Source: Bdellovibrio sp. ZAP7 (GTDB taxonomy: Bacteria; Bdellovibrionota; UBA1018; CAIMNF01). Taken from it: a DNA stretch of 64,000 nt. Below the pieces are notes generated by a model. That model was not told where the DNA came from. It saw nothing but the letters and a program-made list of their open reading frames with translations, and did not search any database. The stretch spans positions 62,001 to 126,000 of the forward strand of contig CAMCGZ010000003.1 in assembly GCA_945874535.1 (NCBI GenBank), given 5' to 3'. A program made the translations under genes and the position numbers. This document shows, one piece after another, positions 34,224 through 50,631 of the stretch. Within the stretch, counting starts at the first letter, position 1. Every line of letters starts with the position of its first letter.

Positions 34224-34688
34224 TTGCCACAAACACCAGATGATTGGGTTGTGGCTACTTACAAAAGACAGCTTAAAAATTACCTGATCGAACCCGAGTT
34301 TCAGCTGAAGTTGATCTCCTACTTCGCCGGACTTTTTGTTTTCACCACGATCACCCTTTATTCCACGGTCTTCATCTTCTTCTGGAGACTGCGTCAAAAG
34401 GCACTCAGCGTAGGCATTCCGGAAGGACACATCTTTTTCCAATTCATCGGCAATGAGAAGCGGGATCTCGACCTCACCTTCGCGCTACTGGCATTCGTGA
34501 ATTTGATCGTACTGATCGGCGTTGGCGTGGTGGTTTCCCACCGGATCGCCGGGCCTCTTCATAAGCTGAAGGGCTACCTGACCCGGGTGATCTCGCCAGA
34601 AGGGCCGGAATTCAAACTCCGCAAGAACGACTTTCTAAGGGATTTGGAGCCAGTCGTAAACGAGTTGAAAACCCGGATCAAAGAATGA
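34224..34688 (+). CDS. Two-helix membrane protein with HAMP-like segment and no output domain
   Basis: 154 aa from a TTG; a GTG at 34251 is also possible. Helix 1 (LISYFAGLFVFTTITLYSTVFIFF) and helix 2 (LLAFVNLIVLIGVGVVVSHRIAGPL) flank a ~35-residue loop. They are followed by a HAMP-like helix (IAGPLHKLKGYLTRV...). No kinase, receptor or cyclase domain follows, so it may act as a signalling adaptor. The stop overlaps the next lipoprotein start by 4 bp. Confidence 0.7.
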   Translation: MPQTPDDWVVATYKRQLKNYLIEPEFQLKLISYFAGLFVFTTITLYSTVFIFFWRLRQKALSVGIPEGHIFFQFIGNEKRDLDLTFALLAFVNLIVLIGVGVVVSHRIAGPLHKLKGYLTRVISPEGPEFKLRKNDFLRDLEPVVNELKTRIKE

Positions 34689-34957: not shown

Positions 34958-35659
34958 TCAGTTACCGAGCTGCTGCCACTCGGGCGACATACAGAGCGTG
35001 ATCATCACAGACCGCCACTTCCCAAGCTGAGTCGGTTTCCTTTCTGCGACACCCATCAGGGCTTGAATCACCTCGCCCGAAGGCTCTTCAAGTCGGTAAA
35101 AAATCCGATATGCTTTCTTGATCGACTCCGGTGACGGTGCATGAATCGATTGCTCGGCCTGACTTGCGTTCCACCCTGGAAAAACCTGTTCCATCAGGCG
35201 GGTGATTCGCAATGTGGCTGTCCCCCCGATCAAGCGCTCGCATAGCCTGGTGGTGAGTGCGAACCGCATCGGATTTGAAAGAGCTGGAAGGATCGGTGTG
35301 ATGTCGTTGTTGCACTCTTTACCCGGAAACTCCCGCTTCACTCCCCCTGAGGCTGAATCCAAAATCTCTGAAGCTTCGTACAAATCACAGGATCCACCGT
35401 AATCCCCTTGGTAAATAATCGATACAAATTCGGAATAGTCCGGATCATTCGCCGAGACACGGAAAATTTCCTCCATTGTCGTCCGGATCACTCGCCGATC
35501 CCCGATCTGGGACTCTACCGGGTACTCCGTATCCATCAACTTGGCTGAAGCGATCGACCTGGCAGTATGATCATTGAATTTGAGTTCAGAGATGTTCGGG
35601 GTACACGCAGCCAACCCGAACAAGCCGAGAATTGCCGGTAAGAATCGCTTCTCAGACAT
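34958..35659 (-). CDS. Lipoprotein of the DUF1501/c-heme operon
   Basis: 233 aa. MSEKRFLPAILGLFGLAACTP has lipobox LAAC (Cys19). The mature protein is mostly helical with several Cys (YGGSCDLYEASEIL, FPGKECNND, LTTRLCERL, ITLCMSPEW). The final segment (WRSVMITLCMSPEWQQLGN) resembles the 'lcmSPeF' ending seen in proteins encoded beside planctomycete-type c-heme proteins. It overlaps the DUF1501-like gene by 8 bp and is third in its operon. No family assigned with confidence. Confidence 0.75.
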   Translation of the reverse strand: MSEKRFLPAILGLFGLAACTPNISELKFNDHTARSIASAKLMDTEYPVESQIGDRRVIRTTMEEIFRVSANDPDYSEFVSIIYQGDYGGSCDLYEASEILDSASGGVKREFPGKECNNDITPILPALSNPMRFALTTRLCERLIGGTATLRITRLMEQVFPGWNASQAEQSIHAPSPESIKKAYRIFYRLEEPSGEVIQALMGVAERKPTQLGKWRSVMITLCMSPEWQQLGN

Positions 35660-37364
35660 TCTTCGGCCCTCCCACGGTTGAGACCCACTCTCCGTTTGTA
35701 CCCTTGGTGATCAAAGGATGATGGTTCGGGGCGGGGCTCGGAATCTGGAGCAGTGATGCAACGGTCGAAACTGCATTACCATAGCCAGCCTTCTGGCCCC
35801 CGAGAGTGACCAGCCCCGCTGCCTCACCCCAAGTATTCCGTTTCTGGAGTGCCTGGGTGGCTTCAATCTTGATGTCTCCCACGACCGTGGTGTTTTTGAT
35901 CTGCCCGGAGAGTATCGAGTAATTCGAGCCGGCAGGCCCGTGATCGGCGCCTTTGCCGTCGTCCCAGGCATCGCGGGCGAACTCAGACGTCAGTGTGATC
36001 ACCGTCTTATCGAACAAGTTCCCGCCATCAGGAGTGGCCCTGGACTTCAATTGCTCGATCAGCTCGTACAAGCATGAAGAAAGTCCCCTAAAATACCTAG
36101 AGAATGAAACCAATTGGACATAAGCACCCGAGGCGTGAGCGTCCACTGAAATGACGGTGGTTCCTCCAGCAGCATCGACATTCTGGGCTCCACGGAAGGA
36201 AGCACCGAGCACGATATTTGCGAAAGATGAGAAATCTCTCTGGAACATGGACCCGCCCGTCATCATGAACTCACTGACGGCGAATCCGGGAGCCAAATAC
36301 TCGATATTACTACCGGTGGTGAGCATGGAAGTGATGTCTGCTCCAGTGTAGTATCCGAAAGTGCCGGCGATCTCCGTACGGAATGGGTTGACCTGGTCTT
36401 GACCGACGAGAGGAACATCATCCGCCCCCGCGAGTCGAAGACTGGCTTCGCCGAACGACCTGGACAACAAGGACTGATACTTCGCAACGAGGGAATTGTA
36501 GACCGTGTTCAACTGGGCATAATCCAGCTTCATCAGGCGCTTGGCGTTCTGGCGCTGGATATAGCTGTTCGGGAACATGCGGTGCCGATCCCCTGCTTGC
36601 CTTTTCATCGCCTCAAGAGCGACATCCATCGCATCACCCACTGAAGATGAATTGGACTCGAGTACAGTCGTTAGCAAATCGAACGGCGAGAACAACTTGG
36701 TCAACGGTCCGGAGGAAGCCAGGTACTCCATCGGGATACCCTTACTGGAACGGTAAAAACGCTTATCCGTCCGGTAGCCGACTGCCGGAAACACTTTATG
36801 CGATGACTCGGCAAGGATCCCACCGAGAGATGCTCCGCCCGGAGGTGCAACGGGTAACCCGGCATTGACGTGCCCATCGAGGGTGTGAAGCCCCCTCATC
36901 ATCAGCATATTTTTTGCCAGAAGATCCATCTGAGCTGAGCCGCCACCCGGGCGGGCAATCTTCCCGGCCCAAAGGTATGGCAAGTGCACTCCATTCACTT
37001 GATGAGTGGCGTATTCGCCACAATAGCCCGCAATCCCTTCATGGGTCGACAGTGCCGGATTGAGGCGCGTGATCAACATGGATGTCTTAGGATCATTCTG
37101 GGCGTTGTAACGGAACCCATCCGAGCTGCCATTGGGTCTGAGCGGGCAATCCCAGAACCAGCGGGAGGGTGCACCGTTCATGCAAACATTGATGAGTTTC
37201 ATCGAGTTGTCATAGGCCCCTTCGCCTCCAATGGCTTGCGCCTCGGCCCGGTAGGTGTACCCGTTCATGATATGAGAGAGGAAGTAAGCCAGTGGTGAAT
37301 AAAGCAACCAACCGGCTCCGAACCCTTGTGCGGACTGCTTCAGAAACTTCCTCCGGTTCATCAC
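35652..37364 (-). CDS. Tat-exported DUF1501-like protein
   Basis: 570 aa. The N-terminus MMNRRKFLKQSAQGFGAGWLLYSPLAYFL is a twin-arginine signal (Arg4-Arg5). TLTSEFARDAWDDGKGADHGPAGSNYSILSG is the metal-site-like segment of DUF1501 proteins, which belong to the alkaline phosphatase/sulfatase-like fold. Tat export implies folding, perhaps with a metal, before leaving the cytoplasm. Its start overlaps the stop of the upstream CxxCH gene (ATGA). In other bacteria DUF1501 proteins sit beside c-heme partners, but the reaction is unknown. Confidence 0.8.
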   Translation of the reverse strand: MMNRRKFLKQSAQGFGAGWLLYSPLAYFLSHIMNGYTYRAEAQAIGGEGAYDNSMKLINVCMNGAPSRWFWDCPLRPNGSSDGFRYNAQNDPKTSMLITRLNPALSTHEGIAGYCGEYATHQVNGVHLPYLWAGKIARPGGGSAQMDLLAKNMLMMRGLHTLDGHVNAGLPVAPPGGASLGGILAESSHKVFPAVGYRTDKRFYRSSKGIPMEYLASSGPLTKLFSPFDLLTTVLESNSSSVGDAMDVALEAMKRQAGDRHRMFPNSYIQRQNAKRLMKLDYAQLNTVYNSLVAKYQSLLSRSFGEASLRLAGADDVPLVGQDQVNPFRTEIAGTFGYYTGADITSMLTTGSNIEYLAPGFAVSEFMMTGGSMFQRDFSSFANIVLGASFRGAQNVDAAGGTTVISVDAHASGAYVQLVSFSRYFRGLSSCLYELIEQLKSRATPDGGNLFDKTVITLTSEFARDAWDDGKGADHGPAGSNYSILSGQIKNTTVVGDIKIEATQALQKRNTWGEAAGLVTLGGQKAGYGNAVSTVASLLQIPSPAPNHHPLITKGTNGEWVSTVGGPKNV

Positions 37365-39070
37365 AGCCCCCGATCCGGCGTTACGAAGGTTTCGGAGGCG
37401 ATAATGCTCCTCAGAAGCTCCTTCACCGATTGATTCTGCTTCAGTTGCTTGCCTAGCTCGATTACACGACTCCTGTAAAGCTTTTGGCTATTGGTCAAGG
37501 CAACTGGATAAAGAGGATCGCTGATGTCGCCCAGGTGAACCGGAACACCGGTCAGCCACTCGAAATACCGCTTCGCTCCACACGCATAAAAATCCTGGGT
37601 GTTTGCGAGCGCCGATCCGAATGCCTGCATCCCTTCAACCGGAATTTGAACCATGGAACCATCATAACTCCGGTACTGAATCACACCCTTTGCCGGTCGG
37701 TCGGAGAAGTCGGGGTCGGGTTCGAGTTCCGGATACGCCGAAAAAGGAAGCGTTGCCGTTTTCTTCATGAAAAACCGGGTGGGTTTGGTCGCATTTCCAT
37801 CTGAACTCAAAATTGAATACATATTCCGGATCGCCCCTGCTCCGACATCCATGGTTTGATGACAGCTCATGCAAGCGATCCCGGAACGCCAGGGGAACTC
37901 GGAGTTGGGTCGGAGGGTGTGCATCACATCCGACGAACGCAGTGCAGGAAGCTGGAGACAGAGGGCATCTTCGAAAACATGCTTGGTCCATAGTCGATAA
38001 CTTCGAATGCCTCCATCAGGACGGACACTCAGGTTCCCGAGCGCTTTATTGTTATTCATGAGCAGGTAGGTCTGCGTGCCGATGAAGCCCGCACCCATGT
38101 GCTCATTCACATTTCCCTCGAAATACTTGTTCCGGAGATTGGCGCGTCCAATTGCGCCTGTGGAGGCCAGTCGGTAATTGAATCGTTCACGGTGTACGAC
38201 TTTTACAGTATTGACCACGCTCGAGGGCACCAGGCCGTTCAGAATGCCCGTCTCTACCAACTCGGGGTACCAGGGAAAGCCCCCGTTGATCTGCGGACTG
38301 GCCGCGACATTCGATGGAGCTGCATTGGTGTTCTGAGCAGAAGATGTGATGCAATCCTTGCAGCAGACAGGTACCGATGTGCAGGTCGGAATGCCATCCC
38401 CCGGTATGACTGAACAGGGGTTGTCACATGGATTCCGGAGCATCGACGAATAGCTATTTCCGAAATCGAAAAAGGGCTCTCGCTTGCCATTCACCATTCC
38501 GTCTTTCATAGTGAATAGAAAATCCGCTGTTTTTTCCCGGCGATTCGAATTGAGGGAAAACCGTCTCGCCCTGAGATCATGGGTCCGGGTGATGAGAGCC
38601 GAATACGGCTCATTTTTTTTGAGAGCGCTGTAGACGAAGTGATAAGCTGGGCTGTTCACATCGTGGATCTCGGCATTCCGGATCGACCCGAGTCCATTCG
38701 AATAATCACTCACAACGAGTTGACTCCGATGAAACTCCAGAAATGAGCTGATCACCTTGGACCCGCGGGTCGAACTGGCGCTAGAGGATGGAGCCTGAAT
38801 CAGTCCTGAGTCGTCGAGCTCACCGAGAGCCAGGATCTCCATGCAAGCCTCGGTACCGTTCTTTTGGCCACTCTTCACTGCGGTCCAGAGCGGGTCTGCC
38901 TCCGGCATCCGTTCTTTCAAAAACAAGCCTGCGCACTTGGAGAGGCGCTTCAATTCGGAAATGATGATTGGGGAATCGACGGACTGTGCAAAAACTTGGA
39001 ATGATCCGGACACACCGAACAGCCCGATAAAGATCTGAAGCCAACAATTCCTCACACGAATTCCCCTCAT
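37361..39070 (-). CDS. Secreted CxxCH (c-heme-type) protein, partner of the DUF1501-like protein
   Basis: 569 aa with a signal peptide (LQIFIGLFGVSGSFQVFA). A single heme-binding motif lies in FPWRSGIACMSCHQTMDVGAG (~residue 400), in the context used by planctomycete-type DUF1588/DUF1585-like proteins. The C-terminal segment (ACGAKRYFEWLTGVPVHLGD...LRSIIASETF) also fits those families. An insertion at ~210-245 holds a run of cysteines (NPCDNPCSVIP...TCTSVPVCCKDCI), unusual for the family. First gene of a three-gene reverse operon. Confidence 0.75.
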   Translation of the reverse strand: MRGIRVRNCWLQIFIGLFGVSGSFQVFAQSVDSPIIISELKRLSKCAGLFLKERMPEADPLWTAVKSGQKNGTEACMEILALGELDDSGLIQAPSSSASSTRGSKVISSFLEFHRSQLVVSDYSNGLGSIRNAEIHDVNSPAYHFVYSALKKNEPYSALITRTHDLRARRFSLNSNRREKTADFLFTMKDGMVNGKREPFFDFGNSYSSMLRNPCDNPCSVIPGDGIPTCTSVPVCCKDCITSSAQNTNAAPSNVAASPQINGGFPWYPELVETGILNGLVPSSVVNTVKVVHRERFNYRLASTGAIGRANLRNKYFEGNVNEHMGAGFIGTQTYLLMNNNKALGNLSVRPDGGIRSYRLWTKHVFEDALCLQLPALRSSDVMHTLRPNSEFPWRSGIACMSCHQTMDVGAGAIRNMYSILSSDGNATKPTRFFMKKTATLPFSAYPELEPDPDFSDRPAKGVIQYRSYDGSMVQIPVEGMQAFGSALANTQDFYACGAKRYFEWLTGVPVHLGDISDPLYPVALTNSQKLYRSRVIELGKQLKQNQSVKELLRSIIASETFVTPDRGL

Positions 39071-39172: not shown

Positions 39173-39574
39173 TCACCAATCCCGTGAAGAGCGACGACTC
39201 TTCTTTTCTGAATGCCGCCTTTTACTCTCCTTGGCTTTTAAGCGACTCGAGTAAGACTGACGGGTTTTCTTCCGCTTTTTAGGAACATGGAGTGCCTGCT
39301 CGATCATCGCCCCGAACTTCTGGATGCAATCCTCGCGATTCTTTTTCTGGTCCCGGAAACGATCGCTCATGAGCACCACTTGCCCGGACTCATTCAACTT
39401 CAATTTTTCCAACAGCCTCAAGCGCTCTTCCTCGGTGATGGACGGACTGGAATGAAGGTCCCACTTGAGAACCGCCTTACTGTTCACTTTATTCACATTT
39501 TGCCCTCCAGGACCGGAACTTCGGGCATAAGAGAATTCGAACTCACTTTCAGGGATGTGAACGATACGTGACAT
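39173..39574 (-). CDS. arfB: Alternative ribosome-rescue factor / peptidyl-tRNA hydrolase ArfB
   Basis: 133 aa from the ATG at 39574, with aggatgga just upstream. YARSSGPGGQNVNKVNSKAV holds the catalytic GGQ motif of class I release-factor-like proteins. The C-terminal tail is extremely basic (KKRKKTRQ...KRRHSEKK), as needed to enter the empty mRNA channel. It frees ribosomes stalled without a stop codon. Divergent from the photolyase gene with 35 bp between starts. Confidence 0.93.
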   Translation of the reverse strand: MSRIVHIPESEFEFSYARSSGPGGQNVNKVNSKAVLKWDLHSSPSITEEERLRLLEKLKLNESGQVVLMSDRFRDQKKNREDCIQKFGAMIEQALHVPKKRKKTRQSYSSRLKAKESKRRHSEKKSRRSSRDW

Positions 39575-39609
39575 GGATTCCATCCTACTCCGGATCAATA
39601 GTTTATGGT

Positions 39610-41097
39610 ATGTTGAACAAAATGAAGCCCCAGTCCGCCGTTCATCTTGTCTGGTTCAAGCGAGACCTCCGGACCCAAGACCATCAGGCCTTGGCAGCAG
39701 CACTTGCATCAGGTCCGACGGCGGGCTTGTTTGTATTCGAAGATGAATGGCTTCAGTCCGAAGATTTTGCGCCCTGTCACCTTCAATTCGTTCTGGAGTG
39801 TTTGACGGAGTTACGTGCTTCACTTGCCCGGATCGGGGTCCCCCTCCTGGTCCGCCACGGTTCGATCATCGGTGTGCTCGATGCCCTACACCGGGAACAC
39901 GCGATTCACACTTTGTATTCGCACCAGGAAACCGGGCTCGATTGGTCTTTCAGACGGGATCAGTCAATCCAGGTGTGGTGCCGCCACTATTCCATTTCTT
40001 GGCAAGAGTTCAAGCAATTCGGTGTGGTGAGAAGGCTGAAGGATCGGAAGACCTGGCCCGAAAAACGCTCTCTCATCATCGATCGGCAGCTGATCCGCGT
40101 GAGTGGTCAAAGCACTCTCAAATCCCCTTGGCCCGAGTTATCGGGAGAGATCCCCATTCCGGATCCGGCGCAGCTGAAGCCGGGGGCCCAAAAGGGCGGA
40201 AGAACAGAAGCCCAGGCCCTCTTGTGCTCTTTTTTCGAGGATCGCGGTGAACACTATTCCGGGTCCATCTCATCCCCCAATACCGCCGGCGAAGGGTGTA
40301 GCCGCCTCAGTCCCCATCTGTCATGGGGCACACTCTCGCTATCGGAAGTCCATGCTTCGATCAGGATGAAGCGTTCGGCTCTCCACGCACTGCCTCGGGC
40401 AGGCAAATGGCTTCGTTCAATTGAACAATTTGAAAGCCGCCTTTGGTGGCACTGCCATTTCATCCAAAAGCTCGAATCCGAGCCTTCGATGGAATTCGAA
40501 AACGTGAACCGTGAATTCGACGGCATGCGCGAAAGTGAATTCGACGAAACCAAGTTCGAAGCCTGGTGCAAGGGCGAAACGGGATTTCCGATGATCGACG
40601 CTTGCATGCGGGCACTGCACCGGAACGGCTGGATCAATTTCAGGATGCGGGCGATGTTACTCAGTTTTGCGACCTATCAACTCTGGCTCCATTGGAAAAA
40701 ACCGGCTGTTTTTCTGGCCCGGCACTTCGTCGACTTCGAGCCCGGAATTCACTACAGCCAGGTTCAGATGCAAGCCGGAGTCACCGGAATCAACACCATT
40801 CGGATTTACTCTCCGAAAAAACAACTCCTCGATCAGGATCCCGAGGGCCGGTTTATCAGAGCACACCTTCCGGAACTGGCACGTGTACCGGTCAGTGATC
40901 TCGCCGAACCTCACCTGATGCCGCCTCTACTCCAGCTGGAATCCGGCTTTCAAGCCGGAGTGCACTACCCGATGCCGATTGTCGATCCGGATGAGAGTTA
41001 CCGTCGAGCGAAGGAGCGGATCTTCGAGTGGAAAAATCGATCTGAAGTCAGGAAGGCGGCAAAACGAGTGCTGAACCGTCATACTTCCAACATTTGA
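39610..41097 (+). CDS. Cryptochrome/photolyase family flavoprotein
   Basis: 495 aa. HLVWFKRDLRTQDHQALAAAL is the N-terminal photolyase domain. The FAD-binding domain has ETGFPMIDACMRALHRNGWINFRMRAMLLSF and GITGINTIRIYSPKKQ-like segments. The canonical Asn-Gly-Gly-Trp stretch that faces the flavin is replaced by IHYSQVQMQAGVTG, a variant found in one bacterial branch. It would repair UV pyrimidine dimers or act as a blue-light sensor. ATG 39622 is an alternative start. Confidence 0.88.
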   Translation: MLNKMKPQSAVHLVWFKRDLRTQDHQALAAALASGPTAGLFVFEDEWLQSEDFAPCHLQFVLECLTELRASLARIGVPLLVRHGSIIGVLDALHREHAIHTLYSHQETGLDWSFRRDQSIQVWCRHYSISWQEFKQFGVVRRLKDRKTWPEKRSLIIDRQLIRVSGQSTLKSPWPELSGEIPIPDPAQLKPGAQKGGRTEAQALLCSFFEDRGEHYSGSISSPNTAGEGCSRLSPHLSWGTLSLSEVHASIRMKRSALHALPRAGKWLRSIEQFESRLWWHCHFIQKLESEPSMEFENVNREFDGMRESEFDETKFEAWCKGETGFPMIDACMRALHRNGWINFRMRAMLLSFATYQLWLHWKKPAVFLARHFVDFEPGIHYSQVQMQAGVTGINTIRIYSPKKQLLDQDPEGRFIRAHLPELARVPVSDLAEPHLMPPLLQLESGFQAGVHYPMPIVDPDESYRRAKERIFEWKNRSEVRKAAKRVLNRHTSNI

Positions 41098-47027: not shown

Positions 47028-50000
47028 CTACTCCAGGAACAACTGCTCGAGATCCTGTTTGGACAACTTTTTCATGAAGTCGGTGTCTTCTGCGATGACC
47101 GCATCGGCCAAATCCTTTTTCTTGCGCTGAAGTTCGAGAATCTTTTCTTCGACAGTTCCGCGAGCCACCATTCTGTAAGTGAACACCCGGTTGGTCTGCC
47201 CCATCCGGTGTGCACGAGCAATGGCTTGGGCTTCCACTGCCGGATTCCACCATGGATCCAGAATGAATACATAATCGGCAGCAGTGAGGTTCAAGCCGGT
47301 ACCGCCGGCTTTGAGACTGATCAAGAACACCGACTTGGCAGGATCATTCTGGAAGCGCTCGACCGGGGTCTTCCGGTCAGTAGTCTGGCCATCCAGATAC
47401 TCGTACTGGATGCCCTCTGCTTCGAGATTCGAACGGACGATCGAAAGGAGACTCGTGAACTGCGAGAACACCAGCGCCTTATGTCCCTCGGAAATCAATT
47501 CTTTCAGGCGTGTCAGGAGTAACTCGAGCTTGGAGCTCTGCTCACTCAGTTTAGCCTCGTCAATGAGCCCGGCATGGCAAGCCGCCTGCCGGAGCCTGAG
47601 CAGGGCCTCGAGAACGTGAATTTTAGACTTCCCAAGACCGTTTTCCTTCACTGATTCTTCAATCGACTGACGGTAGCGCTCGCGAACGGCGGCATAGTAA
47701 TCGCCTTCTTCCTGATTCAGTTCACAGAACAGGACCTGCTCGGTCATTTCAGGGAGTTCGGTCAAGACGGCCTCTTTGGTCCGGCGGAGCATGAAGGGCT
47801 TCAGCAATCTGGCCAATGTTCCCTGGAGATCTTTTGAAAGATCTTCGGGATTCGGGAGCTCGAGCAAATCAGGATTCGAAAACTCCAAAATGGAGAGCAA
47901 ATCACGGATGGAGTTCTCAATCGGCGTACCGGTCAGAGCAATCCGGTAAGAGGCCTTGAGCTGTTTGCAGGCGATGGCCGCCTGGGAGCGGGGGTTCTTG
48001 ATGAACTGCGCCTCATCGATCACCGCGACGTCGAACTGCATTTCACGAAGTTTTTCGATATCGGTTCGCAAGGTTCCATAAGTGGTGACCACCAGGTCCG
48101 CAGAAGCGATTTCCTTCTCGACCTTTTGTCGTCCCCCACCCGCATACTGAACCACCTTCAAGGTCGGAGCGAACTTCTGGGCCTCATCGATCCAGTTGAA
48201 CACAAGACTCTTCGGCGCGACAACCAGGCTTGGGAGCTCGGTATCTTTTTTACGCGACAGCAGGAAGGCCAGAACTTGAATGGTTTTACCCAGACCCATG
48301 TCGTCGGCCAGAATGCCGCCCGAGCGGAAGTCCTGAAGGAAACGAAGCCAAGTGAGACCGTCCTTCTGGTACGAGCGGAGCTTGCCTTTGAAGCCGGTCG
48401 GGGCCTTGGCCGCCTTCACCCGGTCGTAATTGAGGATGCGTTCGCGATAAGTGGTAAAGCCTGTATCACCCCGGACTTCCTCGTCATCTCCCAAAGCCGC
48501 ATTCAAGAGCAACCCCTGTGAGGCGCTGAACCGGAGAGTCCCGTCCTCGGCCTTTTTGCCGATGCCTTGCAGGGTCTGAAAACGATTGATCCACTCTTCA
48601 GGAAGAATGCCAACGCTTCCATCCTTGAGCTTCACGACCGAGCTCTTGGCCTCGAGTGCAGCAATGATATCGGCCTGGCGGATCTTATCGCCGCCGAAGG
48701 TCGCCTCCATGCTCACCTGGAACCAATCGGTGGAAGAACTCACTTTTATGGCAAAATCATCCGCCACAACAACCCGCTTGCCTTCGATGTAGACCACCCA
48801 CCCGCTCTCGCCGAGTTCGGTCGCGGCCCGCTGGAGTCCGCTCATGGGGATGGTCCCGGTCGGATCCATCAGGATCTCGAGGGCCTGGGTGAGGGTGGAT
48901 TCTTCGAATTCGCGATCCCGTGAATAAACCTGGAAGTGTTCAAGATCGAGAATCTGATCGACCTCATCGGCCAAGGTGATCTCGTGGCCCGCATAATCGA
49001 AGCTGACCGTCAGGGTCATGCGTCCGGTGGAGGGATCATTTCCGAGCGGACGGAATACGCCCTTGGGTCGGGGCTGAATCGTGGTCCGCTTCCAACCCAT
49101 CCCGTCTGGCCAAGTGATCTTGGGCGAGTTCGGGTCAGTGAGAATTTTTTTGAGCAGCAGATCTCCCTGGTCCTGGGGGACGACAAAATCCCCGCCACGC
49201 AGGTGAATCAGCCAGGATGCGTGCTTGGGTTCGGCCAAGCGGCTCACCCGGTCTCCGAACAACAGGTGACCGGAACGCAAGACCGACACTGGCTCGTTGA
49301 TGGTCTTCACTTCGTCATCACGGCGAAGAACCCCCTCCAGCCGGTATGCAGAACCGAGCGCATCGATCCTGAGTTCGAGATCCCAGGCCTTTCCCCGGTC
49401 CATGCGAAGCGGACGTTCGGCATTGTCCGGAGAACCGTTTGGGGAACGCGAGATGAAAAGTTTTCCGACCGAGGTCAGGGTGCTGAGGACCTGATTCTCC
49501 AGAATCAAATCGAGAGTGAAACGGGTGCAAGGACTTCCGAAAGAGCTGACAGTCTTCGGGTTTCCGGTGCGGGCCAACAAGGCCACCAGCTCTTGGTCGG
49601 ATGAATCAGCGAAAAAGTGTTGAAAGTCGCGCTCTGGGGCGCGGGCCGGACGGAGTGGACCCGCCTCGCCGTGTATGCCCTTCCTACGGTTCCAGAAATC
49701 GAGGACGAGCTTGCCGGAATTATTGGTCTCGGCTGCATGGATCACAAAGGCCGCAAAGAAGTTACCGCCCAGCCTCCGCGAAGCCTGAACGAACTTCCCT
49801 TGCATGAGGTCCAAGCGTTCCATCCACTTCTCAGTGGGAACAGCGGTACGGGGCTGGATCACGCCCCCGGCCTGTTGGCCTTCTTGGGGCTTTGAGCGCA
49901 AGGGAGCCTTACCGCCTTCGAGCAGAATTTTGATCGGCCCCGAACCTCCGACTTTATCCGAAAGTCCCGAACGCTCAAGCTGGATCACCGCAGCCCAAAG

Positions 50001-50564
50001 ATGCTTGCAGAGAGCTCCCCCCGCGTAAAAGGGACAAGTGCAACGGGCTTCGAGAGATCCTGAAGTCGTGGCCTGGGTGAAATCCACCCATACGTGGTAT
50101 TTCTCGCCCTTCCCTTGGACAGTAAGAGAAAACGCGTTCCCCATCTGGCTGACATCTGAAACATATCCCGAACGGAAGTAGTCACGACCGCGGATCAGGA
50201 CACCGCGAGGAAAGTTCCGGATACAACGCTGCTCGAGACCCGATTTATTGTGTGAAGGACGCGAATGATTCTTACCTCCGCCAGCCTGGGCCGGTGCCTG
50301 AATCGGGGACTGCGCCTGACTCGGACCTAGAGCCTGTTCAGGGACTTCGCCCTCCTCCATGGAGTCGAGTGCAGTCTCTCCGTCTGTTTCGGAGATCTGC
50401 TCGGATGCCAGCTCACCTTCGACCGGAGCGCCTTCTAGAAGCGTCTGATCCTCGGTTGCATCCTGCCCCGGAATCAGGGCTCGTGGTTGCTTCGGACCCC
50501 CTCTTCTGCCGCGACGATGCCGGTTGCGACGAGGGTGACCCGATGGAGATTGAGGGTTCGTCAT
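47028..50564 (-). CDS. SWIM zinc-finger SNF2-family helicase
   Basis: 1178 aa from the ATG at 50564. Residues ~1-100 are disordered: first Arg/Gly-rich (RRNRHRRGRRGGPK), then Gln/Glu/Ala-rich. The SWIM finger at ~165-190 is CTCPFYAGGALCKH (CxCx8CxH). A long middle region (~250-700) precedes the SNF2 motor: DDMGLGKT (Walker A, ~755), VVTTYG, VIDEAQ (box II), LTGTPIEN, and the second RecA lobe LVFSQFT...LISLKAGGTGLNLT...ARAHRMGQT. It remodels DNA-protein complexes using ATP. Convergent with the zinc-ribbon remnant, 8 bp apart. Confidence 0.92.
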   Translation of the reverse strand: MTNPQSPSGHPRRNRHRRGRRGGPKQPRALIPGQDATEDQTLLEGAPVEGELASEQISETDGETALDSMEEGEVPEQALGPSQAQSPIQAPAQAGGGKNHSRPSHNKSGLEQRCIRNFPRGVLIRGRDYFRSGYVSDVSQMGNAFSLTVQGKGEKYHVWVDFTQATTSGSLEARCTCPFYAGGALCKHLWAAVIQLERSGLSDKVGGSGPIKILLEGGKAPLRSKPQEGQQAGGVIQPRTAVPTEKWMERLDLMQGKFVQASRRLGGNFFAAFVIHAAETNNSGKLVLDFWNRRKGIHGEAGPLRPARAPERDFQHFFADSSDQELVALLARTGNPKTVSSFGSPCTRFTLDLILENQVLSTLTSVGKLFISRSPNGSPDNAERPLRMDRGKAWDLELRIDALGSAYRLEGVLRRDDEVKTINEPVSVLRSGHLLFGDRVSRLAEPKHASWLIHLRGGDFVVPQDQGDLLLKKILTDPNSPKITWPDGMGWKRTTIQPRPKGVFRPLGNDPSTGRMTLTVSFDYAGHEITLADEVDQILDLEHFQVYSRDREFEESTLTQALEILMDPTGTIPMSGLQRAATELGESGWVVYIEGKRVVVADDFAIKVSSSTDWFQVSMEATFGGDKIRQADIIAALEAKSSVVKLKDGSVGILPEEWINRFQTLQGIGKKAEDGTLRFSASQGLLLNAALGDDEEVRGDTGFTTYRERILNYDRVKAAKAPTGFKGKLRSYQKDGLTWLRFLQDFRSGGILADDMGLGKTIQVLAFLLSRKKDTELPSLVVAPKSLVFNWIDEAQKFAPTLKVVQYAGGGRQKVEKEIASADLVVTTYGTLRTDIEKLREMQFDVAVIDEAQFIKNPRSQAAIACKQLKASYRIALTGTPIENSIRDLLSILEFSNPDLLELPNPEDLSKDLQGTLARLLKPFMLRRTKEAVLTELPEMTEQVLFCELNQEEGDYYAAVRERYRQSIEESVKENGLGKSKIHVLEALLRLRQAACHAGLIDEAKLSEQSSKLELLLTRLKELISEGHKALVFSQFTSLLSIVRSNLEAEGIQYEYLDGQTTDRKTPVERFQNDPAKSVFLISLKAGGTGLNLTAADYVFILDPWWNPAVEAQAIARAHRMGQTNRVFTYRMVARGTVEEKILELQRKKKDLADAVIAEDTDFMKKLSKQDLEQLFLE

Positions 50565-50631
50565 CTGAAAGCTCAATTCTTGTCAGTTCGGGAGTCTTTC
50601 GTCCAGCATTGTTTTTGTTGACGCAGCGCTC

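Follow-up and report, generated by a model that had tools for sequence, protein, structure and literature searches.

Genes A, B, and C, which occupy positions 34958–39070 of the minus strand of the window (the 64,000-nucleotide stretch of Bdellovibrio DNA analyzed here, from contig C3 of a draft genome totaling 2.4 Mb), are a real and recurrent three-gene unit in Bdellovibrionota. The three products very probably form one complex. In the reading that we prefer, and to which we assign a probability of about 0.5, they would be the core of an envelope complex in which a heme relay is coupled to the action of B on a substrate at the surface, and the module would be related, at some evolutionary distance, to the PSCyt/PSD–DUF1501 pairs found in Planctomycetes and Verrucomicrobia, with a third component added. 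This explanation is based on the linkage of the genes, their export signals, a heme motif, family relationships, and purifying selection, all as judged by sequence. PSCyt/PSD and DUF1501 genes abound in these two phyla, but no function is known for them. The compact Bdellovibrionota version has a constant third component and a partner cytochrome whose place shifts from gene to gene; it reduces the problem to a complex that can be tested, for which Bdellovibrio provides cultured hosts amenable to genetics.

A recurrent three-gene unit in Bdellovibrionota

Gene A (37361–39070, minus strand) encodes a 569-residue PSCyt3/PSD2-like heme protein with a Sec signal and a single CxxCH motif; gene B (35652–37364, minus strand) encodes a 570-residue DUF1501-like protein with a Tat leader; and gene C (34958–35659, minus strand) encodes a 233-residue protein with a lipobox, MSEKRFLPAILGLFGLAAC, from a family without a Pfam model. 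The coordinates, the single c-heme motif of A, the Tat leader of B, the lipobox of C, and the overlaps of 4 and 8 bp between the genes were all as originally predicted. The B/C overlap is the 8-bp sequence ATGTCTGA. The stop codon of A is the TGA at 37361–37363, and the A/B overlap depends on the start of B: it is 4 bp (GTGA) with the GTG at 37364, or 1 bp with the ATG that follows (37361), the start used by most B relatives. The same genome encodes TatC and a cytochrome c assembly protein.

First, profiles of A, B, and C were run over 291 Bdellovibrionota genomes and matched 101, 98, and 79 of them, respectively. Co-occurrence of the lipoprotein with the other two genes, a check suggested with the original prediction, was found for 100 of the 112 C matches, where both A and B lie on the strand of C and no more than 6.5 kb away; several of the other 12 lie at contig ends. 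Viewed from B, 100 of 133 matches have A and C adjacent and another 17 have A alone. The linked loci show four gene orders (ABC, 78; BCA, 13; CAB, 7; ACB, 2), and at locus L140 a 645-residue C-A fusion protein is encoded next to B. The source genome carries three copies of the module, one in the window, one split across contigs C18/C32, and a distant one on C12. Second, the A, B, and C trees are correlated (Mantel r 0.67–0.81 versus 0.20 or less in 999 permutations, a comparison that ignores shared species history). Third, synonymous sites are saturated between the window genes and their orthologues at L029 (pS 0.76–0.78), and pN is 0.13–0.21 for A, B, and C. We give no numeric dN/dS because of this saturation, but saturated pS together with low pN in all three genes indicates that their conservation is not due to chance, and by these substitution patterns all three are under strong purifying selection.

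Several other genes were observed around the module. An RF-1-domain (ArfB-like) gene (39173–39598) and a photolyase gene (39568–41097) adjoin the operon in the window, and the same neighbors are found in L029. Positions 34224–34688 encode a small protein in which two membrane segments are predicted and the end is HAMP-like; genes resembling this one are found close to the module in L029, L032, and L033. At loci L148–L151, a single-heme A-like gene is located by a short B-like gene (about 350–380 residues) and a gene for an 800-residue protein, without C.

Families and predicted folds of the three proteins

The CMSCH heme-attachment motif of A (residues 400–404; 37859–37873, minus strand) is 100% conserved in 79 aligned proteins, and four additional cysteines (46, 76, 371, and 497) are near-invariant. 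With an export signal and a CxxCH motif, A has the sequence features of a c-type cytochrome, and heme attachment is predicted on that basis. The aligned A proteins contain no clearly conserved sixth heme ligand, as H114 is kept in 84% and M407 in 50%. In a Pfam scan, window A reached neither the PSCyt3 nor the PSD2 cut-off, with only PSD2 appearing (E 0.18), and NCBIfam was uninformative for the proteins of the window. Among 18 A proteins, however, PSCyt3 was matched by 10 (best 3.8e-6) and PSD2 by 10; PSCyt1 was found in two of the 18 and is absent from window A; and PSD3, PSD4, and PSD5 had no match in this set.

The relationship was clarified by a second gene set in the same phylum, A'-C'-B' (L143, L144, L146, L152, L157, L158, and L160), in which A' is homologous to A and B' to B. 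Profile comparison by hhalign aligned A with A' over most of its length (99.4%, E 3e-21), and the A' protein of L157 scores above the PSCyt3 cut-off. These profile comparisons place A firmly in the PSCyt3/PSD2 (DUF1588/DUF1585) superfamily, below the Pfam cut-offs in the window. The A'-C'-B' set is unlike the module in that A' has two CxxCH motifs and the small secreted middle protein C' is unrelated to C (hhalign 0.3%). An AlphaFold model of A (pLDDT 74, pTM 0.77) matched no fold in the PDB (best E 1.4), and sequence searches found no relative of solved structure for A, B, or C.

Residues 180–264 of A form an insertion modeled at pLDDT <50, within which residues 215–240 (38351–38428, minus strand) contain cysteines at 215, 219, 230, 236, 237, and 240. 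The original prediction of about seven cysteines within 35 residues is thus corrected to six within 26. All six are common only to window A and the one orthologue found, L029; in this region none of the other 77 A proteins in the alignment exceeds four cysteines, and nearly all have none. This distribution and the low model confidence do not support the proposal that the insert is a functionally important second metal site, and it is a lineage-specific, probably disordered addition. An adhesion or disulfide-loop role would be a speculative alternative.

The B leader, MNRRKFLK, is a twin-arginine signal whose arginines (positions 4–5) are kept in 96–98% of 64 relatives. H165, D408, and H475 of B are invariant, and H410, E461, and R464 are near-invariant. 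Window B aligned with DUF1501 (PF07394) over 51 residues at 20.3 bits (E 3.5e-4), under the 27-bit Pfam gathering score, and 14 of 17 B relatives matched the same family (best 8.8e-7). The B family aligned with B' proteins over residues 404–542 (hhalign 99.1%, E 2e-18), and the B' proteins of L143 and L157 exceed the DUF1501 cut-off and are therefore bona fide members; the alignment with them centers on D408/H410, an SEFxR motif, and a DHG motif. By this profile evidence, B is firmly assigned as a DUF1501 relative that falls below the Pfam cut-off in the window, and the predicted pairing of a DUF1588/DUF1585-like A with a DUF1501-like B is supported through bona fide relatives of each. A structure model of B (pLDDT 88, pTM 0.88) points to an alkaline-phosphatase-superfamily fold. 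Each of the 50 matches listed by Foldseek falls in that superfamily, with lipoteichoic acid synthases, sulfatases, and alkaline phosphatases among the PDB entries, although the scores are marginal (best E 1.9e-3, TM about 0.25). Part of the His/Asp set is retained in B, but no nucleophile is obviously conserved, so the protein may be non-catalytic.

Mature C has conserved cysteines at 91, 116, 140, and 223 and a C-terminal W..I...LC.SPEWQ motif, and neither window C nor its relatives matched a Pfam family. A crude signal test did not find the lipidation signal in every lineage. The C proteins of L039 and L040 carry fibronectin type III repeats and a CxxCH motif, and other C proteins bear one or two cytochrome domains. 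Homology of C to A was considered and rejected (hhalign 1.5%). On sequence evidence, C is a new lipoprotein family, added as a third component to the PSCyt/PSD–DUF1501 pair.

Relation to known gene pairs

In Planctomycetes and Verrucomicrobia, PSCyt/PSD genes are paired with DUF1501 or DUF1552 genes (PMC5615132, PMC2754498). PSCyt genes and the genes next to them have no known functions (PMC5615132), in agreement with the original remark that such pairs lack an established reaction. Like these pairs, the module combines a DUF1501-type protein with an exported heme protein whose C-terminal part resembles PSCyt3 (DUF1588) and PSD2 (DUF1585), and the two genes are adjacent and co-directional. Unlike them, A lacks detectable PSD3, PSD4, and PSD5, the window proteins fall below Pfam cut-offs, nearly every copy of the module is accompanied by gene C, and the PSCyt1-like cytochrome is movable, being part of A, part of C, or encoded separately. 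The module also resembles the DUF1501–DUF1800 pairs (PMC5122149) in having a Tat-exported DUF1501 protein with a larger partner of unknown function, but here the partner is a c-type heme protein, and DUF1800 (PF08811) was absent from A, B, C, and the A family in the Pfam scan.

Movable cytochromes and possible functions

An extra small cytochrome is present at 56 of 78 loci and matches PSCyt1 at some of them. The extra heme motif is located in A at 13 loci, in C at 10, in both at one, and in a separate gene at 32; the remaining 22 loci, like the window copy, have no extra cytochrome within the stretch examined. Separate and fused cytochromes were never found together, compared with about 10 loci expected if they were independent (Fisher P 1e-7, ignoring the relatedness of species). 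Near the module there is also a heme-tagged family of about 385 residues with an N-terminal YPxFIGxGYxSCxxCHYN motif (for example, L030:8400–9554), which has no Pfam match and probably forms an outer-membrane barrel. This family occurs in 176 of 291 genomes, and 33 of its 72 strong matches in module genomes lie within 10 kb of B, versus 0.7 expected. YceI-like genes also recur near the module, and L029, the orthologue of the window copy, has neither neighbor. The Cyc2 cytochrome-porin was considered as an identity for the barrel-like protein and rejected: Cyc2 is marked by AXPXFAR[Q/K][T/Y] upstream of CXXCH and PXL downstream (PMC8406198), and the consensus here, AYPxFIGxGYxSCxxCHYNGxGGGxLTDYGR, keeps AXPXF only.

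In the proposed mechanism, C, lipid-anchored in the window copy, would hold the complex at the membrane; B, with its alkaline-phosphatase-like predicted fold and conserved His/Asp residues, would bind or act on a polymer or ester located at the surface or in the periplasm; and the single heme of A would swap electrons with a partner cytochrome. In most copies this partner would be the cytochrome that forms part of A or C or is encoded by a neighboring gene, whereas for the window copy it would have to come from elsewhere in the genome, such as the second copy on C18/C32. The originally proposed envelope redox complex is thus plausible and is favored by the recurring cytochromes, with contact among the proteins and heme loading standing as predictions. 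A broader version, which we regard as speculative and rather unlikely, is that predatory and related bacteria have a previously undescribed redox system in their outer envelope, with A, B, C, the interchangeable cytochrome, and the heme-tagged outer-membrane barrel passing electrons to a surface substrate or taking them from it.

The complex could also be real and its heme structural or regulatory; B would then be the enzyme, hydrolyzing surface material that is sulfated, phosphorylated, or the like, and the other two proteins would serve as scaffolds. The resemblance of the predicted B fold to phosphatases and sulfatases and the heme of A without a clearly conserved sixth ligand are consistent with this model, as is a non-canonical cytochrome c of Myxococcus that is reported to stimulate calcium binding by PilY1 (PMC8833165). 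Nevertheless, the extra cytochrome domains and the nearby heme-tagged barrel gene fit an electron relay better, and we favor a redox role over a structural heme, which we consider possible but somewhat unlikely.

Alternatively, A and B might act in the assembly or decoration of surface polysaccharide, a role already proposed for the DUF1501–DUF1800 pair that lies beside bacterial chitin synthase genes. DUF1501–DUF1800 genes have been co-transferred with chitin synthase genes (PMC5122149), Verrucomicrobia PSCyt proteins bear carbohydrate-binding modules (PMC5615132), and some C relatives have the fibronectin type III repeats described above. This role is improbable given the missing DUF1800 and a scan of ten neighbors that revealed no polysaccharide synthesis gene. 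Still less probable is linkage by history or co-regulation alone, with the three proteins working separately; envelopes often contain heme proteins as well as alkaline-phosphatase-like ones, but phylum-wide linkage in four gene orders, the C-A fusion, and the correlated trees argue for joint function. Farther from the module, positions 47028–50576 of the window encode a 1182-residue SNF2-family helicase with a SWIM zinc finger.
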